Below are positions 1,182 through 19,116 of a stretch of DNA of 25,809 nucleotides, piece after piece; position 1 is the stretch's first letter, and each line of letters opens with the position of its first letter. This DNA is from a virus. The stretch spans positions 1 to 25,809 of IMG/VR virus record IMGVR_UViG_3300032083_000540; one strand, written 5' to 3'. The translations under genes and the position numbers were made by a program. The notes beneath the pieces were generated by a model, which saw only the letters and a list, made by a program, of their open reading frames with translations, was not told where the DNA came from and ran no database searches.

Positions 1182-1744
1182 GCGCAGGCGCACAGGGAGG
1201 AGGTAAAGGCGGAGGCCGTTCTGTGCCCTACCAAAGTATGCCTTTTATGCCAAGCGCAGGGTCAATGCTTGGCTCTCGTTTGATGGGTAGTCAAGGCCCA
1301 CAAGATTTATTTGTTACGCAAGATCGTAGACGGAACCGAGGGCGAGGTAGAACTCAAAAAGCCCCAGAACAACGCTACGAATTAAAGCCTCTACAAGGAT
1401 TAGAAATAGCTAATCGTCGTACCACGACAATCCCACCTATGCAATCTTACGGTGGTTTTGCACCACAGCCATCCCCTGGTGGGAAAGGTGGCAGAGGTGG
1501 CGGTAAAGGCGGGGGGTACAATCAGCCGTATCAACAGCAACCTTTACCCCAAAACTTAGGCTCTCCAACAGGGTATCAAGGCATGGGGTTCACACAAAAC
1601 TACGGTGTGCCTAGTATGATGAGAGGATCAAACGCTATGGCGAATCCTTTTGGCTCATCTAACCTTCCGATGCGACAGCAGTTTTACACTGCATTTAACC
1701 GTGGTGGGCTGACTCAGCCTGGGATAGGCGGATTTTTCGGCTAA
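1178..1744 (+). CDS. Gly/Gln-rich low-complexity protein
   Basis: This 188-residue protein has no recognised domain. It contains Gly/Lys/Arg-rich tracts (GGGKGGGR near the N-terminus, GGKGGRGGGKGGGY at about 101-114), a basic RRRNRGRGRTQK patch at about 50-61, and a region rich in Gln, Pro, Met and Asn in the second half. The composition suggests a disordered protein able to bind nucleic acid or act as a linker. A GGAG ribosome site precedes the ATG, which overlaps the lysozyme stop. Its own TAA overlaps the next ATG (TAATG). Its position at the head of the tail genes suggests a minor virion or assembly protein, but this is inference. Confidence 0.75.
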   Translation: MSAGAQGGGKGGGRSVPYQSMPFMPSAGSMLGSRLMGSQGPQDLFVTQDRRRNRGRGRTQKAPEQRYELKPLQGLEIANRRTTTIPPMQSYGGFAPQPSPGGKGGRGGGKGGGYNQPYQQQPLPQNLGSPTGYQGMGFTQNYGVPSMMRGSNAMANPFGSSNLPMRQQFYTAFNRGGLTQPGIGGFFG

Positions 1745-3600
1745 TGCCTCTAGCTAAGATACAGTTTGCACCAGGTGTCAACAAAGAGGGCACCGAGTAC
1801 ACGGCAGACTCGGGATGGTTTGACTCTGATAAAATCAGATTCCGACAAGGTCGGGTCGAAAAGATTGGTGGCTGGCAAAAATTAGTTCAATCTGCTTTCC
1901 AGGGTATCGCTCGTTCAATACACAACTGGGCATCTTTGGAAGCTATCAAGTATATAGGTCTAGGGACCAATCTAAAGTTTTATATTGTAGAGGGCAGCGG
2001 CATCAAAGATGTCACGCCTTTGAGAAACACCACTTCTGCTGGCGACGTTACGTTTGCTGCGACTAACGGATCGTCAACCATTACTGTGACTGATTCTGCT
2101 CACGGCGCTGTGGTAAATGATTTTGTTACTTTTAGTGACGCTGCGTCTTTGGGGGGCAACATTATAGCCTCCGTACTCAATCAGGAGTATCAAATCGCTT
2201 CAGTGCCGACCACTAACACGTTCACAATCACCGCCAAAGACACGACCGGGTCCGAGGTGACCGCAAACTCTAGCGATTCTGGAAATGGTGGAAGCTCCAC
2301 GGTGGGAGCGTATCAAATCAATACGGGTCTGAATGCTTTCGTTCAAGGCACTGGGTTTGGTGCCGGTAGTTGGGGTTCTGGAACGTGGGGAAGTTCTAGT
2401 AGCGTTTCCGCAGCAGGACAGTTACGGCTGATCAGCCAGGATAATTTCGGTGAAGATTTAATTTTCAACATCAGAGGTGGTGGGATTTTTTATTGGGATG
2501 AATCTTCTGGTACGGGGGCAAGGGCAATCAACGCAACAGCTTTGTCTGGTGCTTCTAATGTTCCAACGGTTGCTCTCCAGGTCATGGTCTCGGACATCGA
2601 TCAACACGTTATTGCGTTTGGCTCAAATCCCATTGGATCAAGTAACATTGATCCGTTGTTTGTGAGATTCTCCGATCAGCAAAATGCAGCGGTGTGGACT
2701 CCGACAGCGACGAATACTGCCGGTGGAGTTAGGATAAACTCTGGGTCAGAGATTATCGGTGCGGTGCAGGCAAGGCAGGAGATACTTATATGGACGGATG
2801 CAAGCTTGCATTCGATGCGTTTTGTGGGCGCACCTTTCACTTTTCAGTTTTCTACGCTCAGTACAGATGTCTCCATGATTGCGCCAAACGCCGCAGTGAA
2901 TGCCAGGGGTTCGGTTTTCTTCATGGATAAAGGTGGCTTTTACGTTTACAACGGTTCGGTGCAGCCATTGCCTTGTTCGGTAAAAGAACACGTTTTCTCC
3001 AACCTCAACCAAGAGCAAGCGTTTAAGGTTTTTGCGGCAGAAAACAATGCATTTTCTGAGGTGATATGGTTTTACCCAGTTGGGTCCGGCAACACAGAAA
3101 TCACAAACTATGTCTCGTACAACTACTCAGAAAACTTATGGGCTATTGGTACGTTAGAAAGGGGTGCTTGGGTTGGGGCGTCGGTCAACGACAAGCCGTT
3201 AGCAACAAGCTGTATTGATAGCAATGATCTTGTGAACTATCTGTTTGAACATGAGGTAGGTCACGATGATGATGGTTCGGCTATCACTGCGTTTGTAGAG
3301 TCTGGAGATTTGGAGATAGGTGATGGTGAACGGTTTATGATGATTAGCAGGATACTTCCTGATTTTAAGTTTAGTGGTAATTCTACAGATGCCAGTATTG
3401 ACCTCACCATTAAGGGTAGTGATTTCCCGCTTGAAGCTCAAAGCACTCTAGCAACATCTACGGTGTCTTCTTCAACAAAGCAAAATCATATTAGGGCTAG
3501 GGCTAGACATACCATACTTAGGGTTGAAAGTTCGGGCCTGGGGTATGGTTGGCGGCTAGGTGGTTTGAGATTTGATATGAGACAGGACGGGAGGCGCTAA
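1744..3600 (+). CDS. Tail-type structural protein, conserved in environmental phages
   Basis: This 618-residue protein is rich in beta-structure residues (Ser, Thr, Gly, Val). Its N-terminus (FAPGVNKEGTEY, GWFDSDKIRFRQG, EKIGGWQK) is the hallmark of a family common in environmental podovirus-like phages and usually annotated as a tail or structural protein. It may be analogous to the P22 gp10-type DNA-stabilisation or tail-accessory proteins, but I cannot confirm that. Residues of about 95-190 look like an inserted beta-sandwich (ATNGSSTITVTD, HGAVVNDFVTF, SLGGNI). The central and C-terminal parts resemble beta-propeller-like repeats and end in a conserved GYGWRLGGLRFD. Coupled starts at both ends (TAATG) place it in one transcript with the neighbouring virion genes. 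Confidence 0.82.
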   Translation: MPLAKIQFAPGVNKEGTEYTADSGWFDSDKIRFRQGRVEKIGGWQKLVQSAFQGIARSIHNWASLEAIKYIGLGTNLKFYIVEGSGIKDVTPLRNTTSAGDVTFAATNGSSTITVTDSAHGAVVNDFVTFSDAASLGGNIIASVLNQEYQIASVPTTNTFTITAKDTTGSEVTANSSDSGNGGSSTVGAYQINTGLNAFVQGTGFGAGSWGSGTWGSSSSVSAAGQLRLISQDNFGEDLIFNIRGGGIFYWDESSGTGARAINATALSGASNVPTVALQVMVSDIDQHVIAFGSNPIGSSNIDPLFVRFSDQQNAAVWTPTATNTAGGVRINSGSEIIGAVQARQEILIWTDASLHSMRFVGAPFTFQFSTLSTDVSMIAPNAAVNARGSVFFMDKGGFYVYNGSVQPLPCSVKEHVFSNLNQEQAFKVFAAENNAFSEVIWFYPVGSGNTEITNYVSYNYSENLWAIGTLERGAWVGASVNDKPLATSCIDSNDLVNYLFEHEVGHDDDGSAITAFVESGDLEIGDGERFMMISRILPDFKFSGNSTDASIDLTIKGSDFPLEAQSTLATSTVSSSTKQNHIRARARHTILRVESSGLGYGWRLGGLRFDMRQDGRR

Positions 3601-4123: not shown

Positions 4124-6249
4124 TGATGTATCAACAACCCCCATTCCCAATGCAGCCTATGGCAGACCAGATGGCTCAACAAGGCCGGTTTGGCGACAGC
4201 ATGATGGTTCACATGAACCCTATAGAAGTGGCTGGTATCGCCTCTCTGTCGCCCACAGGGCAGCTTACAACCAACCCGATGACAGGACAGCCTGAAGCAT
4301 TCCTGCCCTTTCTAGCACCACTGCTAGGAAGTCTTGCTGGGTCTTCACTCCTCGCGGGAACGGGTGGAATTTTGGCTGGTAAAACAGCTTTGGCGAGTGC
4401 TATTGGTTCTGGTCTCGCCACCACAGCAGTAACTGGAGACTTGAAAGAAGGTTTGGTCTCTGGGCTTACAGGCTTCGGTCTTGGCAAGGCTTTTGAGGCT
4501 GGAGCGAAAGCTCTTTCTGGTGTTGATCAAGCAGCTAAAGCAGCGACAGATGCAACAAAAGCGGCAGACGCAGCGGCTTCTGCCGCACAGATAGGTGCTG
4601 AAGGCAAACTTACAGCCGAAAAATTAGCCCAGCTTCCACAAGTTGGTGCGAAAGAAAAAGCGATAGACACTTTGGCTAAGATTCAAGAAGGGGCCGCTAC
4701 CGCAAGTCCGTTAGATACTTTGCGCGGTCAAGTGAAAGGCTCAACTTTTGCTGGTGTCCCAAAAGAACAAGGATTGATTGAGGGTTTACAAGCTACAGGT
4801 AAAGGTCTTCTGAGTCCGTCGGCAGCCATCCCTATAGCGATTGGCGAAGGTGAGCGAGCCGCTATGGCGCGTCGGCAAGAAATGGAAGAAATGTTTGGTC
4901 GAAGGTCAGCACAATCTGAAGAGGATTTGCGTCGAGCAGAGGAGGCGTTAGATTCTGGTAGATTCTTGAACGTGACCGGCGAGGGTTATGGTAAATATGA
5001 TTATCTTGGGGATGATCCTTACTTCCCAACAGGCATGGCAGAGGGCGGCATTACGGCTATCAACCCACAGGATTTTAGAAAAAGACAAGCAGAGCTGTAT
5101 GGGCTTGCCGGAGAGATGCCGCCAGTGAAGCGGATGCAGCAAGGAGGGCCGTTCCCTCCGAATTTCAACCCGGCCCCGACTTATGGGTTAGGTGGTTCAT
5201 CAGCCGCACAGGCAGCAATCAGAGGCAGTGTTGTTGTTGATCCTAAAGAGCTTGAGGGATATAGACCGGGTTTTGACCCAGAGATAAAGTATTTTAGAGA
5301 CCCAACCCCAGAAGAGATTGAGGCGTCAGAACAAGCTGAAACGACAACAACCCCAACGACCGGGGCTTCAGCTCCTAGTGCTGCTGTAAGTGCTGCTGAA
5401 TCAGACCCCAACAGGAATTTTTCTGAAGAACAAAGCCTCTATGAAAAGGCTAAGGCAACGGTAGATAGCGGATTCGGCTCTCAAAGAAAAAGAAAAGCCG
5501 CAAAGGCGAGAGTCGAAAGATATGAAAGGGAGTTCGGGTTGCCTGGATCGCAGGAGTCCGTTCAAGATAATTATTATAAAGCGCCCCCTCCACCAGCGAC
5601 AGCAGTGACAACACCACCAGCTACGGTAGTGGAGGCTCCGTCACAGACCACAATGGTAGCATCACCTCAAGCTGGAACGGGTATCGAATCTATTCTTCAA
5701 GCTAATCTTGCTGATAGCAACATTGATCCCGCAACTAGAGAACTCATCATGCGCGATGTGTTGAGAGACGCTCGGGGTATGACGGGGCGTTTTCAAGAAG
5801 GAGGCCCGACAAATAAAGCTTTAGAAGACGCTCAAAAACTTTTAGAGCAGACTCGGATGGCGATATTGGGCAGACTGGATGAAGATGATTCAGAAACGAT
5901 CATACAACGATTTATTGATGAGTTCGGAATAGAGGTTTTCCAGGCGTTGAGATCGTCGGTACTAGAAGAGGTAGTTCCTGGCTCTCAAAAAGAGGGTTTG
6001 ATAGATGGTCTTGGCGGTGGCATGGATGATCTTGTACCTGGCATGATCGGTGATCAACAGCCGGTAGCAGTTTCCCCTGGTGAGTTCATTGTACCGGCTG
6101 ATGTCGTCTCAGGTCTGGGCGATGGGGACACTGACGCAGGGGCAGAGGATTTGGAGCAGATGATGGATCGGGTGCGGATGGAGCGAACAGGGACGACAGA
6201 ACAGCCGCAGCCGCTGATGGCTAAAAAGGGAGGCATACTGCCAGCATGA
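4123..6249 (+). CDS. Large inner-virion or tail-associated protein
   Basis: This 708-residue protein opens with a Met/Gln/Pro-rich segment. A hydrophobic Gly/Ala/Leu-rich region at about 64-130 (FLAPLLGSLAGSSLL, GLTGFGLGKAF) could insert into or cross membranes. An Ala/Lys helical stretch and Pro/Thr-rich linkers follow. Short hydrophobic-X-(E/Q)-G-G motifs recur (MAEGG at 305, MQQGG at 338, FQEGG at 557). The C-terminus carries VSPGEFIVPADVVSGLG followed by EQMMDRVRMERTG, a signature seen at the ends of inner or tail proteins of many environmental phages. No enzymatic motif is apparent. Its place between tail genes and the coiled-coil proteins suggests a protein packaged in the virion and perhaps ejected with the DNA. 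The start shares bases with the upstream TAA; a second ATG follows directly. Confidence 0.78.
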   Translation: MMYQQPPFPMQPMADQMAQQGRFGDSMMVHMNPIEVAGIASLSPTGQLTTNPMTGQPEAFLPFLAPLLGSLAGSSLLAGTGGILAGKTALASAIGSGLATTAVTGDLKEGLVSGLTGFGLGKAFEAGAKALSGVDQAAKAATDATKAADAAASAAQIGAEGKLTAEKLAQLPQVGAKEKAIDTLAKIQEGAATASPLDTLRGQVKGSTFAGVPKEQGLIEGLQATGKGLLSPSAAIPIAIGEGERAAMARRQEMEEMFGRRSAQSEEDLRRAEEALDSGRFLNVTGEGYGKYDYLGDDPYFPTGMAEGGITAINPQDFRKRQAELYGLAGEMPPVKRMQQGGPFPPNFNPAPTYGLGGSSAAQAAIRGSVVVDPKELEGYRPGFDPEIKYFRDPTPEEIEASEQAETTTTPTTGASAPSAAVSAAESDPNRNFSEEQSLYEKAKATVDSGFGSQRKRKAAKARVERYEREFGLPGSQESVQDNYYKAPPPPATAVTTPPATVVEAPSQTTMVASPQAGTGIESILQANLADSNIDPATRELIMRDVLRDARGMTGRFQEGGPTNKALEDAQKLLEQTRMAILGRLDEDDSETIIQRFIDEFGIEVFQALRSSVLEEVVPGSQKEGLIDGLGGGMDDLVPGMIGDQQPVAVSPGEFIVPADVVSGLGDGDTDAGAEDLEQMMDRVRMERTGTTEQPQPLMAKKGGILPA

Positions 6250-6761
6250 ACAATCTCTTAGATTTTGATTCTTCAAAGGTTAAAGACATATCCCGCGAAC
6301 CTAAAGTAAGGAGGCGGGATCAGCCAAGAGACGTTACACACACTATAACAATGGTTCCTGCACACTATATCAGCACGATGTGGCCGGAGGTGAAGGGTCA
6401 GTTGAGTAGAGCTGTCGCCCGATCTAATGGTAGGTGGAATCTTGAGTTTCTTTATGCGGCTATTTTGAACGGTAATCAACAGATTTGGTTGGCTTTCGAT
6501 GACGACAAGCGTATCGATGGTGTGGGAACGACGGAGATTTATCAGTATCCAGAGAAAAAGATGTTGGCAATACAGTTTTTGGGCGGAGATAATTTCAACG
6601 ACTGGGTCTGGGATATGCTGGACAAGTTCAAGTCCTTTGGCAAAGACACTGGATGCTCTGGCATTGAGGCAACTGCTCGGATGGGTTTTTGGAAGTGGTT
6701 GGAGCAAGACGAATTCCAACGCTCATACGTTGTTTATGAAAGGAGTTTGACAAATGAGTAA
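6246..6761 (+). CDS. GNAT-like N-acetyltransferase-type protein
   Basis: This 171-residue protein has the layout of a small GNAT-fold family often found among phage structural genes. The visible elements are HYISTMWPEVKGQLSRA (about 40-56), a strand IWLAFDDDKRIDGVGTTEIYQYP, then AIQFLGGDNFNDWVWDML, and CSGIEATARMGFWKWL near the C-terminus. GNAT enzymes move an acetyl group from acetyl-CoA to an amine, but the acceptor here is unknown and a classical Q/RxxGxG/A acetyl-CoA loop is not evident, so it may be divergent or non-catalytic. Its start overlaps the preceding gene (ATGA) and its end overlaps the next gene by eight bases, so it is translated with virion proteins. It may modify a virion protein or a host target. 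Confidence 0.62.
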   Translation: MNNLLDFDSSKVKDISREPKVRRRDQPRDVTHTITMVPAHYISTMWPEVKGQLSRAVARSNGRWNLEFLYAAILNGNQQIWLAFDDDKRIDGVGTTEIYQYPEKKMLAIQFLGGDNFNDWVWDMLDKFKSFGKDTGCSGIEATARMGFWKWLEQDEFQRSYVVYERSLTNE

Positions 6762-8298
6762 AGGTGGTGGTGGTGGTGGCGTTCAAGAAAGCGTCGTAAC
6801 TCAGACAAATCTTCCAGAGTATGCGCGTCCGTATTATGAGGATATGCTCAAGCGCACTGTGTTTGAAAGCACTCGGCCTTACGAAGCTTTTCCTGGTCAA
6901 CGGTTAGCAGACTTTACCGATGCTGAACGAGCAGGGATGCAGGGCTTCCAAGAGATGGCTGCGACTGGCTCTCCGCAACAAACGAGAACGGCTTCAGATA
7001 TTGCTACCCAAGTTGGGTATCAAGATGTCGGTGGCGGCATGGATATTGCGCGGTCTTTTACGCCCGAGATGCAAAGGTCAGGATATCAAGCAAGCCGTAT
7101 CGGCAGTGACTATCGGGCGGGTGATTTAGGTCAGGGGTTCCAAGCGGGTCAGAGAGGCGTCGGTTATCAAGCAGGAAGCTTTGACCCTGGATATGAAGCG
7201 ACTGTTCGTGAATCTGGATATCGTTCTGGTAGGGTAGATCAGGGGTCGGGCTTTGAAGCTGGCACTGTTGCTGATCCTGAAACGCTAGAAAGATATATGA
7301 ACCCGTACCAACAACTGGTGACGGACATAGAAAAGCGTGAAGCTAGAAAGCAGTCCGAAATGCAAGGTTCTGCGATTGAGCAACAAGCGGCACAAGCTGG
7401 TGGTCTTGGTGGTTACCGAGAGGCCATCTTGCAGTCTGAAAGAGAAAAGAATCTTTCTGAGCAACTGCAAGACATCCAATCTAGAGGTGGTCAAGCAGCG
7501 TTTGAGCAGGCGCAAAAAGCTTTTGAAGCGGATCGTGCCGCTCGTCTGCAAGAAGGCCAGTTCGGGTTGCAGGCTTCTCAGCAGTTAGAGCAAGCAAGGC
7601 AGCAGCAAGAAGCTTTCCGACAAAGCGCCTTACAGGCTGGCGAACAAGCCAGGCAACGAGCGGCAGAGTTGGGTTTGACTGCCCAGCAACAAGAAGATGC
7701 TTCAAGGCAAGCGCAAGAAAAATTTGGTCAACAACAATTCCAGCAGAATGAACAGCTAAGGTTAGCCCAGCAGCAGGAAGAAAGGGCTGTCTTTGATGCT
7801 ACAGAAAGGGCAAGGCAAGAGGCTACTAGGCTTGGTCTCAGCGGACAAGAAATCCAAGAGCGAGCTTTACAGGCCGAGAATGAGGCTCGGATGAGAGCCA
7901 GGGCAGAAAATGCCGCGCTTGAAGAAACAAGAGCGAGACTAGGATTCGCTGGCCTTGACGCTGACCGGGCGACCCAAGCTCAACGATTAGAGGCTGCTGG
8001 TTTGCTGGGCAGACTTGGGACTGATGAGCAAAATATGGCTATTGAGCGGTTGAGAAATCTACAGGCATCCGGTCAGATTGAAAGAGAGCTAGGCCAAAGG
8101 GGGCTTGATATAGGCTATCAGGATTTCCTACGTCAACAAGCGTTCCCACGCGAGCAGTTAGCTTTCTTCAGCCAACTGTTGCAAGGATTACCCGTTACAC
8201 CGGGATCACAAACCACCACATTCGGGGGTCCGAGTCAGACAGAAAGGCTGTTGGGTGCTGGGATTGGTGGCGTTGGTCTTTACAACGCAACTCGGTAG
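6754..8298 (+). CDS. Gln-rich coiled-coil inner-virion protein with aromatic/Gly repeats
   Basis: This 514-residue protein starts with a poly-Gly tract (SKGGGGGGV). Residues 88-170 hold about eight degenerate repeats, 9-11 residues long, of the form G-(Y/F)-x-(A/S)-(G/S/T). The stretch RYMNPYQQLVTDIEKREA (about 178-195) is a recurrent motif in phage inner-core-type proteins. Residues of about 195-440 are rich in Gln, Ala, Glu and Arg and should form long coiled coils. No catalytic residues are visible. By position (after tail genes, before the giant protein) it is a likely counterpart of T7-type internal core proteins that form the ejection channel; this is inference from context and composition. 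AAGGAG lies a few bases before the ATG. Confidence 0.78.
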   Translation: MSKGGGGGGVQESVVTQTNLPEYARPYYEDMLKRTVFESTRPYEAFPGQRLADFTDAERAGMQGFQEMAATGSPQQTRTASDIATQVGYQDVGGGMDIARSFTPEMQRSGYQASRIGSDYRAGDLGQGFQAGQRGVGYQAGSFDPGYEATVRESGYRSGRVDQGSGFEAGTVADPETLERYMNPYQQLVTDIEKREARKQSEMQGSAIEQQAAQAGGLGGYREAILQSEREKNLSEQLQDIQSRGGQAAFEQAQKAFEADRAARLQEGQFGLQASQQLEQARQQQEAFRQSALQAGEQARQRAAELGLTAQQQEDASRQAQEKFGQQQFQQNEQLRLAQQQEERAVFDATERARQEATRLGLSGQEIQERALQAENEARMRARAENAALEETRARLGFAGLDADRATQAQRLEAAGLLGRLGTDEQNMAIERLRNLQASGQIERELGQRGLDIGYQDFLRQQAFPREQLAFFSQLLQGLPVTPGSQTTTFGGPSQTERLLGAGIGGVGLYNATR

Positions 8299-8304
8299 CG
8301 ATAT

Positions 8305-10113
8305 ATGAACATACTTGAAATCGAAGACATGGTGAAAGGGTTGCCCGATGATCGGCTGCAACAAGAGGCGGAGATGCCCACTGGGCAAGTGCCTCAGTTT
8401 CTAGTTGTGTCTGAGATTCAGAGACGTTCAGATATGCGTAGGCGTTTTGCTGAAAGGCAGCAGCAACAGCCTCAAGGCACCGTTAAAGATCAGATCATAC
8501 AAGAGGGTATAGCGGCGATGGCACCGCCAGACCAGTCGATGCAGGCTGCGATGATGGGTCAACAGGAGCAGATGCCACCACAAATGATGCCTCCTGAAGG
8601 AATGCCGATGCCTCCTGAAGGAATGCCTATGGAGCAACCTCCTATGGGTATGTATGGAGGGGGTGTTGTTCGTATGTATGAGGGTGGTAAAACCATAGAG
8701 CAAATAGCCGAAGACCTATATGACTACCAGAGGCCAACGATCAGCACTCGGCGCGGAGCTAGACCACAACCAGGAGCAACTTCTAGAGATGAATTTATTC
8801 GTGAACTTCTTCCTCGATATGAAGGCGTGATGCCGGGTGAGAGGTTGCCTAGACGCGGCCAGCGAGAATCATTTATCGATGATGTAGTTGAATATGTGTC
8901 AGACCGACAAGGGTTGGATGACACTGGACCAGATGCAAGTCCTGCGAACTTCCGATTGATGGACGCCAGTCTCAATAATCAGGAGGAAAACATCGGATCA
9001 CAAATGGTAGGTGAAGAATCGGGGCCATTTGAAATCCCAGAAAACGTAATGAAGCCACCTCCAGTTATCCCGACGTTAGATAACCTTATAGCTGGCGATC
9101 TCAGTCAAGACTCATCTGACGTTCGTCAGAACATTGAACGGTACATAAGTCCAGAGGTTTTCCCTGATGATATCACTCGACTTTCTGGATCAAACGCGAT
9201 TGGAGAGGATGCGAAAAGATTCAATCAGAATGCTGACGCATCTAACGTCAGGGCTGCTCTTGAAAGAGAAAAGCAAGCTAAAACCGACCTTGCTGGCAGG
9301 CGCATCAAGCAATTAGAGGGCTTAGAAAATGAATTCGAAAGCTACGCTCAGTCTATTAAAGACATGAAAGTGCCAGCAATCAATTACTCTAGCTTGAAGG
9401 CGCAGCAGCAAGAGTTTGCAGAAGGTCAAATAGCAGAGGCTAAGAAGGCTGGCGCAGCACAAGCACTGATCGCACTGGGTGCTGGCATCGCCAGAGGTGA
9501 TATTGCAGAAGGTTTGAGCGAAGCGGGTAAGGCCACTGCCGCAGCAAACGCTGAGAAGAGAGCAATAGCAGCAAGAAACAAGGCTGCTGAGTTTGGCTTC
9601 ACCAAGGCGGAGATTGATAACGAATACAATCGGGCTGTCAAGAAAGAAGAAAACAGGCTGAGAGCTATTGAGACTGAGATCGGCGCTCTAGAAAATCTTG
9701 GGGCAAGTCGCTTTGCCGCTGAACAATTTGCCATCGTTAGCGAAACAGCTATAGAGCAAGCTATTGCAAACCTAAATCAAAGCACAGAATTGGCTCTTGC
9801 AAAGATAGAAAATGATAGGTTCAAACAAGAAGAGCTTCTGAAGAGAGAGGTTCTCAGGGCCGCTTCCAATTTGCTGGATAAAATGCCTGTGCAGGTAACT
9901 CAAACAATGGAGAAAAATGATATCGTCGCCTTGCAGAGCCAACTAGCAGCAACGATAGGTGAACAGTTTGGTCTAACGCTTCCAAGAATTAGTACAACGC
10001 AAACAAGCACAACCACACCTGGGGATGATTTTGAGGAAAAAATTAAAGGTTTAGACCCAGAAATCCGAAAGCAGTTGCGACAGCAGAGAGAAAGACTGGC
10101 AGGCGCGGAATAG
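8305..10113 (+). CDS. Helical inner-virion-type protein
   Basis: This 602-residue protein starts with a helical region (IEDMVKGLPDDRLQQEAEMP, PQFLVVSEIQRRSDMRRR) seen in proteins preceding giant inner proteins in related phages. A Met/Pro-rich tract with a 21-bp tandem DNA repeat follows (8587-8628, MPPEGMP twice), then MYGGG and MYEGG at about 116-128. Residues of about 320-540 form long Ala/Glu/Lys/Gln helices likely to coil. A short hydrophobic stretch (AALIALGAGIARGDI type, about 387-402) could contact membranes. No enzyme motif was found. No clear ribosome site precedes the ATG, which lies six bases after the upstream stop, so translation may be coupled. I infer a packaged core or scaffold role. 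Confidence 0.75.
   Translation: MNILEIEDMVKGLPDDRLQQEAEMPTGQVPQFLVVSEIQRRSDMRRRFAERQQQQPQGTVKDQIIQEGIAAMAPPDQSMQAAMMGQQEQMPPQMMPPEGMPMPPEGMPMEQPPMGMYGGGVVRMYEGGKTIEQIAEDLYDYQRPTISTRRGARPQPGATSRDEFIRELLPRYEGVMPGERLPRRGQRESFIDDVVEYVSDRQGLDDTGPDASPANFRLMDASLNNQEENIGSQMVGEESGPFEIPENVMKPPPVIPTLDNLIAGDLSQDSSDVRQNIERYISPEVFPDDITRLSGSNAIGEDAKRFNQNADASNVRAALEREKQAKTDLAGRRIKQLEGLENEFESYAQSIKDMKVPAINYSSLKAQQQEFAEGQIAEAKKAGAAQALIALGAGIARGDIAEGLSEAGKATAAANAEKRAIAARNKAAEFGFTKAEIDNEYNRAVKKEENRLRAIETEIGALENLGASRFAAEQFAIVSETAIEQAIANLNQSTELALAKIENDRFKQEELLKREVLRAASNLLDKMPVQVTQTMEKNDIVALQSQLAATIGEQFGLTLPRISTTQTSTTTPGDDFEEKIKGLDPEIRKQLRQQRERLAGAE
8587..8628 (+). repeat. 21-bp tandem repeat inside the 602-residue gene
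   Basis: Two head-to-tail 21-base copies begin with ATGCCTCCTGAAGGAATGCC and encode MPPEGMP twice, within a Met/Pro-rich low-complexity tract. It is a likely slippage product, kept in frame. Confidence 0.85.
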
Positions 10114-10122
10114 ATATCAACG

Positions 10123-13100
10123 ATGTCATCTCAAACAATACAACTCCTGGAACAGGCTCTTATTCAGGCAAATGAAGAACAAAACAAAGAAGACATTGAG
10201 GTTTTTACAAATGCGCTCTTAGAGCAGATTGAAAAGCAACAGCTACCTGCTACACAAGAGATTGTTGATCAGTCGAATATAGCGCCACAGCTGCAATCTG
10301 AGTTAGAGCCAGAAGAAGATGTCACCGTTTTAGGTGGCGTGGGTGAGTTCTTCAAAGCAATACCCAGGGGATTTGCAAACTCTTATCTCAGCTCTGCTGA
10401 GGGACTTGCAGAGATAAGTGATGCTGCTACAAATGTGGTTGGTCTTGAAGAAGCCATTGATTCTGGTGACGCCAATGCAATGGTCTCCTTTGCCAGAGAT
10501 GGGCGTCGAGCAGTGCAGGGCGCTCTTGGTGCTAACGAGGCTTACCAAGACCTATGGTCAACAAAGCTAGGTGAAGGTGTTGGCTCATTTGCATCCTTCT
10601 TTGGACCGGCTGGTTTTGTGAAGTTGCTTGGCCTGGCTGGAAAGGGTGCAGCGGCATCAAAAGCCGCATCTACTGGCGCACTTGCTGTGGGTGGCGGTGC
10701 TGGTGATCAAGCGCAAAGGATAGAAGCTGCAAGACAGGCAGGCATTGATATCTCTCAGGCAGACGAGGACGCAGCGATCCTTCTTGGTGGTGCTGTTGGT
10801 GCGACTGAGTTGCTCACTGTGAATATGCTTCTCAGAAGATTGTCCAAAAAAGACATGACCCCAGAGCAGATAGACGGTGTGAGGGGTGCCATTAGTTCCG
10901 CATTGAAAACTGGCTCAATAGAGGGTACTCAGGAAGTATTGGCTAGTGTTTTGCAGGACTCCATTGAGCGTAGGTTTTATAACGAAGACCTCCCGGCTGG
11001 TGAGTCATTGTTCGATGACTTCACTATCGGTGCAACCATTGGTGCGGGGGCTGATTTAGTCACCAGTGCGTTCATAGGTAAAGCTCGCAAAAAGCGTATG
11101 GAAGCCATTCTTGAGAATGAAGAACAAGAGCGCGAGCGGTTTTCCGAAAAAGTCGCAATGGCAGAGCGCGATCTTGATTTAGTAGAGCGTGGCAGGCTAG
11201 ACCCTACGGTCATTGAACCGACTCCTGAAACAGACCCTTCAACAATTATACCTCCTGTTGCAGAAATGCAGACGGACCCATTACGAGCAGCTAATTTAGC
11301 AGAAGCTGAACGAATTGGTGTGCGCGAGAAAATGTATGCTTACGCTCAGAAAATTGCTGGGGTAGAGGGTGCGAACTTCCCTTTCGTCGGTAATGTTTTT
11401 GTGGCAACACCGACAGCAGAAAATCAAAATCAGTTTGAAGTCCTAGATTCTGACGGTAACAAGCATGGTGTTACCTTGAGCAAAGCAGAGGCTATTGAGC
11501 TTGCGGATCATTTGAATGAGATCGCAGAAACAAAAAATATCGTAAAGTCTTTGATAGATCGCCTGGAAACAAGCCCAGATTCTTATACAAAAGAACAGAC
11601 CCAAAAGCTTTTAGACCTGGGTCTGAGAGCTAACTCTCCTTCGTTTGGCAGATTCACATCACTTGAGATTGATATGGCTGCTGAAGCTGATGAAGAGGCG
11701 GGGTTCAATCCCAACAAAAGCGTCAGAGAGCTAGAGCAAGAAGGGGTCAAGAAAAAAGATTACACCCCGTCTCAAAAAATAAACGCCAAAAGATTAGAGC
11801 GTGGCCTTTCTGAAGATGTCACTCATTCTGTCGAAGACGCCAAGAAAGCTCTTGGTGATAAGTTTGAGCTGCTTGCTCCAGAGGGTCGTAAGCGCACGGT
11901 TGATTCGATAAAAAGACTTCTTGAAATAAAAAATATAGAAGCACCTTTAGGCTCTAAGCAGCTTAGATTCTTGATGGAAAAGTTTATCGGTGTACCCGCT
12001 TCAAGCAACAGAAAGCTGTACGATCTCACAAAAGGCGAGATCAACCTGTTATACAAAAGACTTGAAGAGTTACCCAGCTTTGAGTCTCCGACCAAACTGC
12101 CCGATCTGAGGCTTCCCAACTACACTGCTATTCAATTCAGCGCCGCAAGTGACCTACTCAACAAAAATCCCACAGCCACCGATTCAGAAATCGCAGCAGC
12201 CGCACGAATAGACCTAACAAAAAAGAGTGGCCGAAATAAACTCGCGTCTCTCAAGCAAGATTTAGCAAGCCAGGGAACGCTAGAGCTTGCTGAGACAAAC
12301 GCTAAACGTATACAGGACGATCAGTTAGAGCAGGCCAGAGAGGATGCTCAAGCTGAGGAAGTTTCTATTGACGATATTTCTAGAGATAGTTTGGAGACCA
12401 TAGATTTATCTGTTGGCATGACCCTAGAAGAATTGTCTGAGGCTACCGGGAGGACGATAGAAGAAGAATCACAAATTGTTGATCGGTTAATAAGGCAAGG
12501 CGCGGTTATCGCTGAAGACTTCGATGGGGTTTTGTTACTCACGGTTGCTGATCAAGCATCTGCTGACATCGCCGCAGATGATTTAGATGATATTCAACCA
12601 TCGAAAGTTGATGAAGCTGACCCAGTTGCGCCACTGGAAGAGCAAGACTCGTTGCTTGACGGTTTGACAAAAACATTAAGAGAACAGATGCAGCGTTATG
12701 GGTTGGGTGATGTTGCGGTCAATATAGATCATGCTTTGAGAACCGTAGCGAGGGATAGTCAAGGCAACTTGGTTTATGGGATCAAAGCTATACCGATCAA
12801 AACTCTCAAGAATCTCAAGCCAGAAGACGTTGAGCTGTACGGGCAAGGCGATGTTTATGCTTTCGTCGGTAGCGAGCTAGATCAAGGTGTCGAAGGATAT
12901 TACTCGCCCAATATCGGTCAGATTTTTCTAGGCATAGATCGGATAAAAGCTCAGAGACCAGATGCTACCCCAGAGCAAATAGCTAATGACATGATCAGCA
13001 TTCTGGACCATGAAATTGTTCACGCTCTTAGGCAGCTTGATGTTTTCAAGCAAACCGAATGGAAACTGCTGTCAGGTCTATCGGCCAAAAAGAAAAGGTC

Positions 13101-16100
13101 GGACGGTTCAACGTATCTTGAGTGGGCAACAAGCACCTATCAAGGAGATGGGTTGAGCAATGCTTCGATAGTGGAAGAGGCGGTTGCAGAAATGGTCAGG
13201 GACGGACTAGCAAATGCCAGGATGTTTGGCGGCAAGCCTCAGTCGGTCATTAACAAGATCAAGCAGTTTTTCCAAAGGCTCAATAACTCTTTCTCTGGCT
13301 CGGGTTTTGCTTCATTTGAGGACATGATCCAGAAGATCAATTCGGGTGAGATTGGTAGTAGAGATGTCATCGATGGGCAGCGGCAGTCTGTCGTCAGAAC
13401 GCCTTACCGGCTAGAAAAAACTGGCCGTCTCACTAGCGATTTAGAGATATTACAGCCACTCTCACTTGAGGAAGAAGAAAGGCAAAAGAGATTAGATGAC
13501 TTTGAGATGTCCAAGGTGGCTCCGATCAAAGCCGAAATGGGTATCAATGTGAGAACTGATGGTGAATCAAATTATGCTGACCTGATTGTTGGCGGAGAAA
13601 AAAGATACGAGAGCCGAGATAAAGATTCTCTTCGTCCGTATGTCGGACAACGTGTTGGAATCATAGAAACAGGCTCTGGTCCTGCAAAGCTGGTCGGGTA
13701 TGCTACCGTTGGTGAGCCTATTGAAGTTGGGGAAACAGAGTTTTCTGATTCAAGAGATCAGCATCTTGTGCCAGAGGGCAGCAAATTTGATATAAAGCCA
13801 GGGCAATCTAAGTTTCTTTATGAGATGATTGATCCTGAGAGGTTGCCAGAGCCTATCGACGCATCGGCAACCCGAGGCATCGTTGCAAGAAATATTTCAC
13901 AGCTTGGAGATGAAGGTGTACGACCCCAACGCAGAGGAGACGGAAGAGGACGCGATCAGACACGAAGCGTTGCGCCGACAGAGGATCAGGATGCAAGCAC
14001 AGATGCACTCCCAGAAGCGCCTGTTAGAGTCGGAGCGACAGGCCCAGACCCAGCGATCAACGTCGCAGCAAAGCGGTATGCAGAAACCTTCGACATACCA
14101 GTCACCAGGCAAAAGAAGTATGTAAGGGTAGACCTAGATAGAGCTGAACGAATAGCTCAAGCTTATGAAGATATGGTCGATGATCCTACCGACCCTATCG
14201 TCAAAGAAGCTTATGAAGACCTGGTCCGACAAACTAGAAATCAGTACGACGCTCTTATCGATGCTGGCTTTGAGTTTACCTTTTACGATTCAAACTCTGA
14301 CCCCTATGACGGCAACCCGTATAACGCGATGCGTGATTTACGCAACAATAAGCGTATGGCTGTGTATGGGACTTACGATGGTTACGGCACATTAGAAGAC
14401 TTCAATGATGATCTAAATGATCCAGACAGAGTCATGTTGCGCGACAGCGGCTTGCGATGGAAGGACCAGTCTGGTGCAGATCGAATTGTCACCAATAACG
14501 ATTTATTCAGAGCGGTGCATGATGCGTTTGGTCATGGCATCGAAGGCGCTGGATTCCGCGCCCGTGGCGAAGAAAACGCCTGGCAGGCTCATGCAAAACT
14601 GTTCACTGGTCCGGCGCTACAGGCGCTCACTTCAGAGACCAGGGGTCAAAATAGCTGGCTTAATTTTGGTCCGTATGGTGAGCAGAACAGAACCGCCGGA
14701 GTTTTGGATACGGTTTTTGCAGAACAAAAGATGGGCCTCATGCCTGAGTGGACATCCCGAGAGGGTCGGGACGGTCTTGAGGACGACCTATCTTTAGATG
14801 AGTCTGTCTTTGCAAGGCGAGCTGCTGAACAGGGAGGCGTCGAGGGTAACGTCAGCACACGATTCCCCACAGGTAAAAAAGCAAAAGAAGACCCGATTGA
14901 AGACTTGCTAGTCAACGATTATGGGGCATTTGTCGATGATCGCCCGGTGTTTATCAAAAACATGAAACTGATCAAAGACGCTCTTCTATATCCGCTGCTA
15001 CGAAAAGGCCGAGAGCTAAGGACAGATGAGCAAAAAGCAGAAGCATTCGTTGATCTTGTTAAAGACAACTTGCTTTACATCCACGACAGTGTGCCTGTTG
15101 ATATCCGAGAGCAATCAAAAGTTTGGTATAACGGTGCGAACTCTGTGGTTCGTAGATTTGCAGATCGTCACAAGATAACCATGCAACAGGCTGCTGCTGT
15201 GGCTGCCGTGCTATCACCACAAAAGGACTGGTATCAGAACGCCTCACTTGCAGAGCGAACTATCGATACGTTCTTCAATCATGCAAGACAACCGTTCACT
15301 CCCGAGATGAAAGCTCGCGCTGAGGAGCTGTTCTTTCATAAGGATATCAAACCTAAAGCTCAGGCTAGAAACCGTGAGATGCTTGAACTGATAGGTTCTA
15401 GCTCCCTGGAGCAGATACTGCGTAAATTCAATGAGCCAGGACTTGGCCAGCAGCTAGGCGCTATGTGGATCAGGACGTTTGACCAGACCTATAACGACCC
15501 AAGCTACAGGATTGTATCCCCGGACGGCAGGCTTCTAGACTACGCAAAGAACGCTGACGGCAGCAACTCAAAGATAGCTTGGGGGTCTTTGTCTGAGATA
15601 GCCAAGTCAATTGAAGCGTTGCGCGAAGCCGACATTGATGTGATATCTGCAACCCTTGGCTCGGCAAATAAAGTCAGAAACTTCTACAACAACATATATG
15701 ATCCAGAGTCCGATCTTGGTTATGTGACTATCGATACTCACGCCGTTGCAGCGGGGCTTCTGAAGCCCCTCGGCGGCAGTGCATTTGAGGTATCTCACAA
15801 TTTTGGAACCAAGGGTTCATCCTCACAAACGTCTGGCCTTAACGGTGTTTATTCTTTGTATGAAGAAGGATATCGCCGTGCCGCTAAGGAGCGAGGCATT
15901 CTGCCTAGAGAAATGCAATCTATTACCTGGGAGGCGTCCAGGGGTTTGTTCCAGCCAGACTACAAGAGACAGAAGAAAAACATTGAGTTTGTGAATGACG
16001 TATGGAGACAGTACAATAACAAACGAATAACACTGGACCAAGCGAGAGAAATAATTTATGAACACGCAGGACAAGTCACGCCCCCAGAATGGTATCGATC

Positions 16101-19100
16101 TGACGGAGCAGTATCTGATTTCAACGAAGCAACCACTTACGAGAGAAAACTACCTGATAGCGGCATACCCAGACCGAGACCCAACTCGGCAGCTAGGCGC
16201 AGAGGAAGAAGCGATGCTGCCGCCGAGGTACAGGCAGAAGCAGACGTAGGAACCGTTGATCAATTAGTTCAGCGGTTTATACCAAAGCCACCACTGATAA
16301 GTGATGCCCAAGTTAATCTGGCAGTAAAAAAAGACGAAGAAATTGCAGAAACAGTACCGGCCACTTTCATCCCCCGAATCAACCCAGATAGCGACGGATA
16401 CACTCAAGCTGTAGCGAGAGACCCCGATCAAGGTCAAACGCTTGACGATCTTGACGACGCTTTGTTTTCACGATCAAACACTCCAGACTTAAAGCCAGAA
16501 GAGCAGAAGGCGCTAGAAAGTTTGGTTGCAGAACCGCCTCCTGACAGCACACCTGGTATGGCCTATTTGGGTGCCGTTGAAGAACCTGAGTGGCGGACTT
16601 GGTTGGACAAAGTGAAATCTGGTGCGATCAATAGGTATGCTCGGATTGAGAGATTACTAAACAAGGATGGTAGATTCTCAAATCATCTAGCCGACGTAAG
16701 CTCCATGAGTGCGTTATTGATGGCAGATCGATCTATCGCAGTGAGTGCCACGGCTCTACAAAAAGGGATTCCAGTTTACAAGGACGGCGCTACTTCGGTA
16801 GAACCTTTCTTTCATGAAGGCAAAAAGTACAAGGGCTTGATCGGTGTGATGGAGCCGCTTTTTAACAATCAGTACGGAAAGAATCTAGAACAGTTAGCCC
16901 AGGCTTACGCCATAGCCCAAAGAGGTATGCGCTTAAATCAAGAGGGTAAAGCTGTCCCTGGCGATCCAGAAGCGAATGCCAGAATACAAGAAGCCGTCGA
17001 TAGATACATAAACGAAGAAACAGGCAGACCGATCATAGAGGAATGGTATCAAACCTGGCAGGCTTACAATCGCAACACGGTCCAGTTTTTGATGGATACC
17101 GGGGTTCTAGATGCAGAGACCGCCACGTTGTGGATGAAACAATCTGACTACGTTCCTTTTTATCGTCAAAGCACAGAGCCAGACGCTGATCTAGGACCAA
17201 ACGTACCGAAAGTTTTTTCTGGTATGACGAGTGCCGCGCAATTCAAAAAGCTTGAGGGCAGTGAGAAGCAGATCAACATTCCAATGCTCGACGCGATCAC
17301 CCGTAATCTTTCAGCAGCGGTTGAAATGGGAATGAAAAACGTCGCTCAACAAAGAGTCGCTCGGGATTTGATCAAAATGGGGTTGGCAGAAAGAGTGTCG
17401 CCTTTGGCAAAAACAGCCGAAGGGGCTGGAGTAATTAGCTTCAAGTCTAAAGGACAAAAGGTCAACGTGAGAATCAACGATCCGTTGATTTACGAATCTT
17501 TACTCCCGCTAGACGCTGGGTATCCGCTGCTTGAGAAATATCTCGGAGCGCCAGCTATATTTTTGCGGGAAATGATTACGAGAGACCCCGGATTTGTTCT
17601 CACGAACATGGCCCGAGACACGCTCAGTACCTACGTTACGTCAGGCTCTTCTTTTACGCCCGTGATTGATACGGTAAAAAACTACGCCAAAGACATGAAC
17701 GACTTGGAAAAATTTGGAGTCGTCGGTGGATATGATTTCGGGAAAGACCCCAAGGACATCGTTAAGTTTATCAACAAAAACCTCAAGCGCCGGGGAGCTA
17801 GAAGGACCGAAAGAGGTCTAACGGACAATGTAGTCACAGATATGTTCGGCGGTATGTGGGACACTTTGGGTACTTTAAGCACTCGGTCTGATTTTGCCAC
17901 CAGGAAAGCGGTGTATGATGATGTTTTAGCTCGCACCGGGAACGAAGCAGAAGCGGCATTCCAAGCACTTGAAGTGATCAATTTCGGTCGTCGTGGTTCT
18001 AACCCGGTGATGAGGACGTTGACTGCGATGATCCCATTCTTGAACGCGAGGCTACAGGGTCTTGATGTCCTGGCGCGAGCATACACTGGCGGATACAGCG
18101 CAGATAAAACAAAGACTCGGGGGCAAAGGGCTGTGAGTGCTACGGTTCGGAGTTTGTACCTGACGGCGCTTACTGGGATGTACTACTTATTGGTGAGTGA
18201 TGATGAGCAATACAAAGAACAAACCGACTACATCAAAGATAACCATTTCATCATCCCGTCAGACTCTGGTAAACCGTATAAGTTGCCAATTCCATTTGAA
18301 ATTGGTTTCCTTTTCAAGACTATCCCAGAGCGTGTACTTGATTCAATGGTTGGTGAATCCAGCACGAAAGACGTTCAAGAGTCTGTCGCCAGGGGAGTTT
18401 TCAACACTCTTGAGTTGAATCCGTTTGACGCCGCAGCCTACGGACCACTGATCGAAGCGAGTATGAACTTTGACTTTTTTACTGGGAGGTCGATTGTTCC
18501 GTACTACATTGATCGAACTATTGAGCCACGGCTGCAATCGACAGATCGTACAACCGAAATCTCTAAAAATGTTTCTAATTTTCTGTCAAAAGGTAACGTA
18601 GAGATTAGTCCATTGAAGATTGATCACTTGCTTTACGGCTATGGCGGAACGCTCGGCTCTTACGTTATCGACGTTGTAGATTTGATTCTGAAAGGAGATG
18701 ATCCTACAAAACAACGCCCTATGCGTATGGAAGATTACCCGGTGATGAGAAGATTTCGGGCAAGAGAATTTGGTGGTGGGCCATCTGAAGATTTCTACGA
18801 GCTGAAGCAGTACGTTGATCAACTCTACGGTTCTATGAAACAACTAGAAAAACAGGGTCGCTTCGATGAAGCTTCTGCTTACGCTGCCACAAACGCAAGC
18901 GTCATTGGTTATCGTAAAGGATTGAATGAAATAGCTGATGAACTTTCTAAACTTAGAAAAGTAGAGCAGATCATTCTATCTTCTGATTTGCCGGTCAAAG
19001 AAAAAGAAAAACAACAAGATGAGTTGAGGGAAGCAAGGCAAATAATTTTGAGGGCAATCGTTCCTATCTATAAAGCAGAAATACGACCGCCCCTCAGATT

Positions 19101-19116
19101 CAAGCCACTGAACTAA
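10123..19116 (+). CDS. Giant polyvalent (multidomain) inner-virion protein, 2,997 residues
   Basis: One unbroken frame covers nearly 9 kb. Order of parts: helical N-terminus with hydrophobic Gly/Ala-rich segments (about 60-330, for example 152-172); charged and helical linkers with HTH-like stretches (about 330-840); zincin metallopeptidase (about 847-1110, HEIVH at 963-967); ASCH-like module (about 1127-1245); a domain with HDAFGH at 1466-1471 and EENAW at 1483-1487 (about 1315-1550); an HhH-glycosylase-like domain with TIDTH at 1869-1873 (about 1592-1994); a disordered linker; and an LPD38-like C-terminal region (about 2144-2997). Phage polyvalent proteins of this kind are thought to be packaged and injected so that their domains act at once on host defences, host enzymes or incoming DNA. 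Position and size also match T7 gp16-type core proteins. No lytic transglycosylase motif was noticed. The stop overlaps the converging gene by four bases. Confidence 0.9.
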   Translation: MSSQTIQLLEQALIQANEEQNKEDIEVFTNALLEQIEKQQLPATQEIVDQSNIAPQLQSELEPEEDVTVLGGVGEFFKAIPRGFANSYLSSAEGLAEISDAATNVVGLEEAIDSGDANAMVSFARDGRRAVQGALGANEAYQDLWSTKLGEGVGSFASFFGPAGFVKLLGLAGKGAAASKAASTGALAVGGGAGDQAQRIEAARQAGIDISQADEDAAILLGGAVGATELLTVNMLLRRLSKKDMTPEQIDGVRGAISSALKTGSIEGTQEVLASVLQDSIERRFYNEDLPAGESLFDDFTIGATIGAGADLVTSAFIGKARKKRMEAILENEEQERERFSEKVAMAERDLDLVERGRLDPTVIEPTPETDPSTIIPPVAEMQTDPLRAANLAEAERIGVREKMYAYAQKIAGVEGANFPFVGNVFVATPTAENQNQFEVLDSDGNKHGVTLSKAEAIELADHLNEIAETKNIVKSLIDRLETSPDSYTKEQTQKLLDLGLRANSPSFGRFTSLEIDMAAEADEEAGFNPNKSVRELEQEGVKKKDYTPSQKINAKRLERGLSEDVTHSVEDAKKALGDKFELLAPEGRKRTVDSIKRLLEIKNIEAPLGSKQLRFLMEKFIGVPASSNRKLYDLTKGEINLLYKRLEELPSFESPTKLPDLRLPNYTAIQFSAASDLLNKNPTATDSEIAAAARIDLTKKSGRNKLASLKQDLASQGTLELAETNAKRIQDDQLEQAREDAQAEEVSIDDISRDSLETIDLSVGMTLEELSEATGRTIEEESQIVDRLIRQGAVIAEDFDGVLLLTVADQASADIAADDLDDIQPSKVDEADPVAPLEEQDSLLDGLTKTLREQMQRYGLGDVAVNIDHALRTVARDSQGNLVYGIKAIPIKTLKNLKPEDVELYGQGDVYAFVGSELDQGVEGYYSPNIGQIFLGIDRIKAQRPDATPEQIANDMISILDHEIVHALRQLDVFKQTEWKLLSGLSAKKKRSDGSTYLEWATSTYQGDGLSNASIVEEAVAEMVRDGLANARMFGGKPQSVINKIKQFFQRLNNSFSGSGFASFEDMIQKINSGEIGSRDVIDGQRQSVVRTPYRLEKTGRLTSDLEILQPLSLEEEERQKRLDDFEMSKVAPIKAEMGINVRTDGESNYADLIVGGEKRYESRDKDSLRPYVGQRVGIIETGSGPAKLVGYATVGEPIEVGETEFSDSRDQHLVPEGSKFDIKPGQSKFLYEMIDPERLPEPIDASATRGIVARNISQLGDEGVRPQRRGDGRGRDQTRSVAPTEDQDASTDALPEAPVRVGATGPDPAINVAAKRYAETFDIPVTRQKKYVRVDLDRAERIAQAYEDMVDDPTDPIVKEAYEDLVRQTRNQYDALIDAGFEFTFYDSNSDPYDGNPYNAMRDLRNNKRMAVYGTYDGYGTLEDFNDDLNDPDRVMLRDSGLRWKDQSGADRIVTNNDLFRAVHDAFGHGIEGAGFRARGEENAWQAHAKLFTGPALQALTSETRGQNSWLNFGPYGEQNRTAGVLDTVFAEQKMGLMPEWTSREGRDGLEDDLSLDESVFARRAAEQGGVEGNVSTRFPTGKKAKEDPIEDLLVNDYGAFVDDRPVFIKNMKLIKDALLYPLLRKGRELRTDEQKAEAFVDLVKDNLLYIHDSVPVDIREQSKVWYNGANSVVRRFADRHKITMQQAAAVAAVLSPQKDWYQNASLAERTIDTFFNHARQPFTPEMKARAEELFFHKDIKPKAQARNREMLELIGSSSLEQILRKFNEPGLGQQLGAMWIRTFDQTYNDPSYRIVSPDGRLLDYAKNADGSNSKIAWGSLSEIAKSIEALREADIDVISATLGSANKVRNFYNNIYDPESDLGYVTIDTHAVAAGLLKPLGGSAFEVSHNFGTKGSSSQTSGLNGVYSLYEEGYRRAAKERGILPREMQSITWEASRGLFQPDYKRQKKNIEFVNDVWRQYNNKRITLDQAREIIYEHAGQVTPPEWYRSDGAVSDFNEATTYERKLPDSGIPRPRPNSAARRRGRSDAAAEVQAEADVGTVDQLVQRFIPKPPLISDAQVNLAVKKDEEIAETVPATFIPRINPDSDGYTQAVARDPDQGQTLDDLDDALFSRSNTPDLKPEEQKALESLVAEPPPDSTPGMAYLGAVEEPEWRTWLDKVKSGAINRYARIERLLNKDGRFSNHLADVSSMSALLMADRSIAVSATALQKGIPVYKDGATSVEPFFHEGKKYKGLIGVMEPLFNNQYGKNLEQLAQAYAIAQRGMRLNQEGKAVPGDPEANARIQEAVDRYINEETGRPIIEEWYQTWQAYNRNTVQFLMDTGVLDAETATLWMKQSDYVPFYRQSTEPDADLGPNVPKVFSGMTSAAQFKKLEGSEKQINIPMLDAITRNLSAAVEMGMKNVAQQRVARDLIKMGLAERVSPLAKTAEGAGVISFKSKGQKVNVRINDPLIYESLLPLDAGYPLLEKYLGAPAIFLREMITRDPGFVLTNMARDTLSTYVTSGSSFTPVIDTVKNYAKDMNDLEKFGVVGGYDFGKDPKDIVKFINKNLKRRGARRTERGLTDNVVTDMFGGMWDTLGTLSTRSDFATRKAVYDDVLARTGNEAEAAFQALEVINFGRRGSNPVMRTLTAMIPFLNARLQGLDVLARAYTGGYSADKTKTRGQRAVSATVRSLYLTALTGMYYLLVSDDEQYKEQTDYIKDNHFIIPSDSGKPYKLPIPFEIGFLFKTIPERVLDSMVGESSTKDVQESVARGVFNTLELNPFDAAAYGPLIEASMNFDFFTGRSIVPYYIDRTIEPRLQSTDRTTEISKNVSNFLSKGNVEISPLKIDHLLYGYGGTLGSYVIDVVDLILKGDDPTKQRPMRMEDYPVMRRFRAREFGGGPSEDFYELKQYVDQLYGSMKQLEKQGRFDEASAYAATNASVIGYRKGLNEIADELSKLRKVEQIILSSDLPVKEKEKQQDELREARQIILRAIVPIYKAEIRPPLRFKPLN
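12661..13452 (+). other. Domain of the giant protein: zincin-like metallopeptidase
   Basis: Residues of about 847-1110. The HExxH motif is HEIVH at 963-967 (His963, Glu964, His967) in the context ISILDHEIVHALRQLDVF. A downstream EEAVAEMV at 1018-1025 could give the third zinc ligand (Glu1018, Glu1019 or Glu1023). The lead-in GLGDVAVNIDHALR and the strand QIFLGIDRI fit metallopeptidase domains known from polyvalent proteins. The target could be the virion itself, peptidoglycan-linked peptides or a host protein; the sequence does not say which. Confidence 0.72.
13501..13857 (+). other. Domain of the giant protein: ASCH/PUA-like module
   Basis: Residues of about 1127-1245. The pattern YADLIVGGEKRYESRD, then LRPYVGQRVGI, then AKLVGYATVGEPI resembles the ASCH fold (GEKxxExR, GxRVxI and VGxxxV elements), a PUA-related RNA- or nucleotide-binding fold. 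It ends with KFDIKPGQSKFLYEM. The family match is made by eye from motif order. The ligand is unknown. Confidence 0.55.
14065..14772 (+). other. Domain of the giant protein: conserved HDxFGH domain of unknown function
   Basis: Residues of about 1315-1550. The core is LFRAVHDAFGHGIEGAGFRA (1461-1480), then RGEENAWQAH (1481-1490), then SETRGQNSWLNFGPYGEQNR and DTVFAEQKMGLMPEWT. The density of His, Asp, Glu, Arg and Asn suggests an enzyme active site. I recognise this pattern as recurring in phage proteins but know of no assigned function. The HDxFGH hexapeptide also resembles the iron-binding HxxxxH of bacterial phenylalanine hydroxylases; that likeness is short and may be chance. Confidence 0.6.
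14896..16104 (+). other. Domain of the giant protein: HhH-GPD DNA-glycosylase-like domain (tentative)
   Basis: Residues of about 1592-1994. The visible motifs are VWYNGANSVVRRFADR, AAVAAVLSPQKDWYQN (1691-1706), LGSANKVRNFYNNIY and YVTIDTHAVAAGLL (1867-1880), then REMQSITWEASRGLF. The spacing of a Lys-bearing helical turn and a (V/I)DTH motif recalls HhH-GPD glycosylases of the EndoIII/OGG type, where this Asp is catalytic and the Lys, when present, forms the Schiff base. No canonical GxGxK hairpin is seen, so the assignment is tentative. The domain as a whole appears conserved in other phage proteins. Confidence 0.45.
16552..19113 (+). other. C-terminal region of the giant protein: LPD38-like
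   Basis: Residues of about 2144-2997. Helical segments lead to NFGRRG (2620-2625) followed by RTLTAMIPFLNARLQGLDVL, a pattern I associate with Large Polyvalent Protein-associated Domain 38. A short hydrophobic stretch (about 2677-2691, SLYLTALTGMYYLLV) and FIIPSDSGKPYKLPIPFEIG follow. The end is Lys/Glu/Gln-rich helix. The role may be packaging or membrane channel formation in the virion core; this is inferred from its constant C-terminal place in such proteins. Confidence 0.6.

Follow-up and report, generated by a model that had tools for sequence, protein, structure and literature searches.

The window, the whole 25,809-base stretch of a virus record (IMGVR_UViG_3300032083_000540) whose source is a tailed phage, contains one reading frame of 9 kb. 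The first-pass annotation had described the frame as intact, with five segments in a fixed order. Both points held. The frame at 10123-19116 is uninterrupted, with 2,997 codons and no stop, compared with a longest open run of 226 codons when the bases of this stretch were shuffled 200 times. HEIVH lies at residue 963, ASCH at residues 1150-1220, HDAFGH at 1466, DTHAV at 1871, and NFGRRG at 2620. A near-identical copy is encoded on a metagenome contig (L002, 100% over residues 1-2997), and further viral-contig homologues share 54-77% identity, with most of the length covered.

10123..19116, plus strand: gene for the 2,997-residue polyvalent protein (one ORF, homologues elsewhere)

With its disparate domains, the polyvalent-specific LPD38 domain, and late and virion gene neighbors, the giant protein is a phage-type polyvalent protein. 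Such proteins, among them P1 DdrB and the N4 virion RNA polymerase, share very large size, disparate domains, a zincin peptidase, LPD38, and a late-gene neighborhood (Iyer et al. 2017, PMC5512222). Glycosylase, ASCH, and hydroxylase domains are absent from the main text of that paper. Neither HDxFGH nor DTH was found described elsewhere, and NCBIfam and PADLOC scans gave no matches. That several modules share one chain is supported by Pfam matches for LPD38 and ASCH, by conserved zincin residues, and by AF2 domains in the HDxFGH-DTH part.

The regions outside the HDxFGH and DTH modules were located as follows.

10300..11307, plus strand: N-terminal Gly/Ala-rich region, residues 60-395, part of the conserved frame (conserved in 22 ORFs)
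11305..12612, plus strand: region X, residues 395-830, common to close relatives (17 ORFs)
12595..13467, plus strand: zincin-like metallopeptidase domain, residues 825-1115 (27 ORFs)
13009..13023, plus strand: HEIVH, residues 963-967 (H963, E964, and H967 invariant in alignment A6)
13174..13191, plus strand: EEAVAE, residues 1018-1023, presumed third zinc ligand (E1018, E1019, and E1023 invariant in A6)
13570..13782, plus strand: ASCH domain, residues 1150-1220 (Pfam PF04266)
16240..19113, plus strand: conserved C-terminal block, residues 2040-2997, including NFGRRG at 17980-17997 (one half in 29 ORFs, the other in 39)
18202..18744, plus strand: LPD38 domain, residues 2694-2874 (Pfam PF18857, E 4.7e-35)

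Hydropathy analysis of residues 60-395 revealed three moderately hydrophobic stretches near positions 153, 217, and 300, and the region may have a membrane or pore role. The segment previously taken for a peptidase has its HExxH motif and downstream glutamate intact and invariant in A6, a full-length alignment of five proteins, as would be expected of a zincin. No Pfam model matches the zincin-like domain, which fits the statement that zincins of polyvalent proteins form their own clades (PMC5512222). The proposed ASCH segment passed the Pfam cutoff of 21.2 bits when searched as a slice (21.4 bits), fell below it in the whole protein (16.3 bits), and was clearer in the homologue L051 (32.5 bits, E 1.4e-7); the slice thus matches the family of ASCH proteins (PF04266), embedded here in a giant protein. 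NFGRRG, which had been called LPD38-like, does belong to the same conserved C-terminal block, but it lies ∼70 residues ahead of the Pfam LPD38 match.

The genes around the giant gene were then considered. On the plus strand the order is holin, lysozyme, phrog_3287 virion protein, 708-residue protein, 171-residue protein, phrog_4287 ejection homologue, 602-residue protein, and the giant gene, which is the end of the late operon. Genes for replication and recombination (ERF, a PD-(D/E)XK nuclease, RusA, and a primase-helicase) converge on the giant gene or lie further to the right.

1744..3600, plus strand: virion structural protein, also in the late operon (phrog_3287, E 5.9e-72)
6754..8298, plus strand: DNA ejection protein homologue, two genes upstream of the giant gene (phrog_4287, E 3e-8; synteny)
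8305..10113, plus strand: 602-residue protein immediately upstream of the giant gene, presumed second ejection protein (synteny)

The 602-residue protein gave no family match, and its gene stays adjacent to the giant gene in relatives. Homologues of the ejection gene and the 602-residue gene also precede divergent giants (e.g. L077, L091, L097, L157, and L163). Because they precede giants that are otherwise very different, the position of the last ejection protein is the one that the giant protein retains. This agrees with the earlier remark that it is placed like an ejected core protein, behind DNA-ejection-type genes, and the position is kept across relatives. One relative (L085) matches phrog_342, an internal-virion-protein family, and gp205 of Rhodococcus phage E3, which carries HDxFGH and a DTH-like module, is annotated as "structural protein." From synteny and the precedents in PMC5512222 we infer a role of the frame as ejected carrier, the giant protein probably being a virion component that enters the cell along with the DNA. 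P1 DdrB undergoes processing prior to packaging, but the N4 virion RNA polymerase goes into the particle whole (PMC5512222); because these two differ, either course could apply to the giant protein. The location of the gene in the late operon beside structural and lysis genes would also suit a protein that is not injected, either a virion scaffold or assembly protein or a late protein with enzymes acting late in the infected cell. We regard this as improbable, however, given that giant genes stand behind DNA-ejection-type genes in many phages and that HDxFGH and DTH recur in E3 gp205 with its structural annotation.

Between the ASCH domain and the C-terminal block lie the HDxFGH and DTH modules.

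14050..14781, plus strand: HDxFGH module, residues about 1310-1553 (phrog_3170; AF2 folded domain; alignment A4)
14518..14535, plus strand: HDAFGH, residues 1466-1471, presumed metal site together with E1483 and H1490
14851..16152, plus strand: DTH module, residues about 1577-2010, HhH-glycosylase-like (Pfam DUF7178/phrog_3842)
15670..15672, plus strand: K1850, with which the second hairpin helix starts, presumed catalytic lysine (63 of 63 sequences; also in E3 gp205)
15733..15741, plus strand: DTH motif (D1871-T1872-H1873), whose aspartate opens a helix and is presumed to be catalytic (D1871 in 62 of 63)

An AF2 model of residues 1300-2010 (46 rows) had a mean pLDDT of 89.7. Because a linker at residues 1554-1559 with pLDDT below 50 divides two well-predicted parts, HDxFGH and DTH are most likely separate folded domains, in keeping with the distinct modules of the first-pass annotation.

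In alignment A4 (31 diverse sequences), H1466, D1467, H1471, E1483, and H1490 are invariant. This conservation suggests a metal site, and the HDxFGH module is a probable metal enzyme as judged from its sequence. No solved relative was found in PDB profile sequence searches or among the fold matches listed. An assignment as HD-type phosphohydrolase was ruled out on inspection, since no invariant histidine precedes the HD pair. The HDxFGH motif itself, followed by two helices, also occurs in the aromatic amino acid hydroxylases, which are pterin-dependent non-heme iron enzymes, and in hhalign A4 scored 27.8 against Biopterin_H (P 0.0066), with controls at 11-18. The module might accordingly be a relative of these hydroxylases, a reading that concerns one module and is compatible with the best explanation of the whole protein. 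However, the likeness is essentially that of the hexapeptide alone; nothing clearly corresponds to the glutamate ligand of the hydroxylases (at E1505, L004/L095 and L176 have Q), Pfam gave no match to PF00351, and no hydroxylase appeared among the fold matches listed. With the weak signal carried by the hexapeptide only and the family profile match absent, the idea was dropped as very improbable.

HDxFGH is a protein family widespread on mobile elements. A scan found more than 560 relatives in viral contigs, and copies occur in 187 mycobacteriophage records, on a few plasmids, and rarely on bacterial chromosomes, as seen in the Enterovibrio family (150 genomes) and in the class to which the BD1-7 bacterium belongs (369 genomes). 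Gene 99 of the C1 mycobacteriophage Alice is an HDxFGH gene. Two bacteria, Enterovibrio baiacu and a member of the BD1-7 clade, encode HDxFGH as a stand-alone protein directly behind an S-adenosylhomocysteine-hydrolase-like gene (L178:8766-10720 and L180:8768-11236). The S-adenosylhomocysteine-hydrolase-like proteins of the two bacteria are 45% identical, and this neighbor may hint at the HDxFGH substrate. The bacterial protein at L180:9944-11236 is fused to DUF3293, and its gene is present in two copies in the genome. On a Microbacterium plasmid (L218:5191-8941) an HDxFGH gene lies near an ArdC-like gene in a neighborhood of antirestriction type.

The DTH module had been called glycosylase-like. 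In the model, a helix at residues 1838-1845 is predicted to be followed by a turn, a helix starting from K1850, an extended piece, and a next helix starting at D1871. This succession corresponds to the catalytic plan of endonuclease III, of the HhH-GPD family, with LSxQ in front in both. The catalytic Lys and the Asp after the hairpin that mark HhH-GPD enzymes are thus matched by K1850 and D1871, at the corresponding helix positions. LSxQ, GxxxK, and [VI]DTH follow one another in 78 of the 90 DTH ORFs and in seven bacterial Nth proteins, and the rest of the 5,926 ORFs compared lack this combination; the three-motif pattern was written after both families had been seen, so that these counts measure specificity and not chance similarity. 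In a Foldseek search of 350,542 PDB chains with the DTH core alone (pLDDT 86), structures of AGOG 8-oxoguanine glycosylases (7ou3, 1xqp, and 1xg7) came out on top, as three of the best five matches, at values that are not significant (E 0.24-0.49, TM about 0.3, rmsd >11 Å). Across the AGOG entries, the probability was 0.28-0.63 and E 0.24-0.88. Nth, MutY, and OGG1 were absent among the 50 fold matches listed.

In hhalign, DTH gave no significant score against a panel of Nth, MutY, and AlkA-type proteins drawn from seven bacterial genomes; the controls were reversed or had shuffled columns. The alignment of DTH with Nth paired K with K and DTH with DTH at a score on the level of the reversed control (17.6 versus 17.3, P 0.33; not significant). 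No Pfam match to PF00730 (HhH-GPD) was obtained for DTH, its profile gave nothing credible against PDB sequences, and no publication on DUF7178 turned up in the literature. The earlier label therefore stands with regard to motif order, helix plan, and weak AGOG matches, on which the likeness to glycosylases rests; it did not extend to a significant profile comparison, and membership in HhH-GPD is not established.

DTH thus shares with HhH-GPD glycosylases (Nth) and AGOG a predicted helix-hairpin-helix, Lys and Asp at matching places, and LSxQ ahead of them, but differs in being undetectable by Pfam and profiles, in a long insert, in extra C-terminal helices, and in other invariant residues. 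The insert between LSxQ and K1850 spans 150 residues compared with about 80 in Nth, and many invariant residues (WYxGA, SPQKDWYQN, and QSITWE) are unlike those of glycosylases. Together with the nonsignificant profile and fold values, these differences leave some room for an ejected polyvalent protein in which DTH is another enzyme on an HhH scaffold (e.g. a base-modifying transferase) or a noncatalytic DNA binder. We consider this doubtful, as K1850 and D1871 are conserved at the expected places and AGOG came up repeatedly at the top. A glycosylase-type reaction of the DTH module is somewhat favored. Many viral contigs (L021 to L064) encode proteins of ∼640-900 residues with DTH at the very C terminus, behind ∼200-490 residues.

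The first-pass annotation had proposed a comparison of domain order in homologues. The same set in the same order recurred in L003, whereas other relatives carry different module sets or orders. Among 119 nonredundant ORFs with HDxFGH or DTH, 20 arrangements were counted; as HDxFGH and DTH themselves served as the search queries for the sampling, the counts are not population frequencies. HDxFGH and DTH were found alone, together, and in either order, with DTH ahead of HDxFGH in L023, L031, and L078. The same frame of N-terminal region, peptidase, and C-terminal block holds ASCH-HDxFGH-DTH in the giant protein and L003 and, as far as profiles see, HDxFGH in L107 and L092 and DTH in L009 and L011. 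Partner domains in other giants include ADP-ribosyltransferase (nine of 14 scanned), inorganic pyrophosphatase (three), GNAT, and RadC. E3 gp205 resembles the giant protein in having HDxFGH and then the DTH-like module in one protein, with K, D, and T kept; however, its 858 residues are far too few for the whole giant frame, the histidine of DTH (H1873) is replaced by Q, and Q1700 of LSxQ is not kept. The best reading of these arrangements is that the giant protein consists of a conserved frame and swappable cargo.

Taken as a whole, we favor an ejected polyvalent carrier with swappable cargo in which DTH acts as a lysine-dependent HhH glycosylase, with a probability of roughly 0.55. The giant protein would be the last and largest of an apparent set of ejection-type proteins, traveling in the particle and entering the cell with the DNA. 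The frame (Gly-rich N terminus, zincin peptidase, and C-terminal LPD38 block) would serve packaging, passage, and possibly self-processing, and the zincin would perhaps drive release of the cargo. The cargo between peptidase and C-terminal block, namely ASCH, the probable metal enzyme HDxFGH, and DTH, would act on host nucleic acids and metabolites. In DTH, K1850 would presumably attack the sugar with assistance from D1871; the base removed could come from the DNA of the host or of a competitor, or it could be one that is damaged or modified in the incoming DNA.

More tentatively, the particle could deliver a DNA glycosylase-lyase, an ASCH base reader, and a new family of HDxFGH metal enzymes, so that base excision would take place at the first moment of infection. 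If delivered in this way, it might be directed against host DNA or a competing element, or it might mend or unmask modified incoming DNA. Brig1, a glycosylase with which bacteria resist T-even phages, belongs to the uracil-glycosylase superfamily and has been proposed to be monofunctional (PMC11078745). It would be comparable as a glycosylase in phage-host conflict only if the glycosylase reading of DTH holds, and it is a bacterial-side defense gene, whereas DTH is phage-encoded and of a different fold class. If the proposal is true, base excision joins the activities that phages may carry in with their DNA, mirroring glycosylase defenses like Brig1. DUF7178/phrog_3842 and phrog_3170, modules that are abundant in phages and had no function assigned, gain domain limits and presumed active-site residues, and DTH in addition gains a testable reaction class.

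The 171-residue protein at window positions 6246-6761 (phrog_7642) is GNAT acetyltransferase-like by eye and had no Pfam match; in relatives, too, its gene precedes the ejection gene. At the right of the window, ARAGORN reported a candidate tRNA-Ser(aga) at positions 25333-25408, which overlaps an ORF at 25147-25701.
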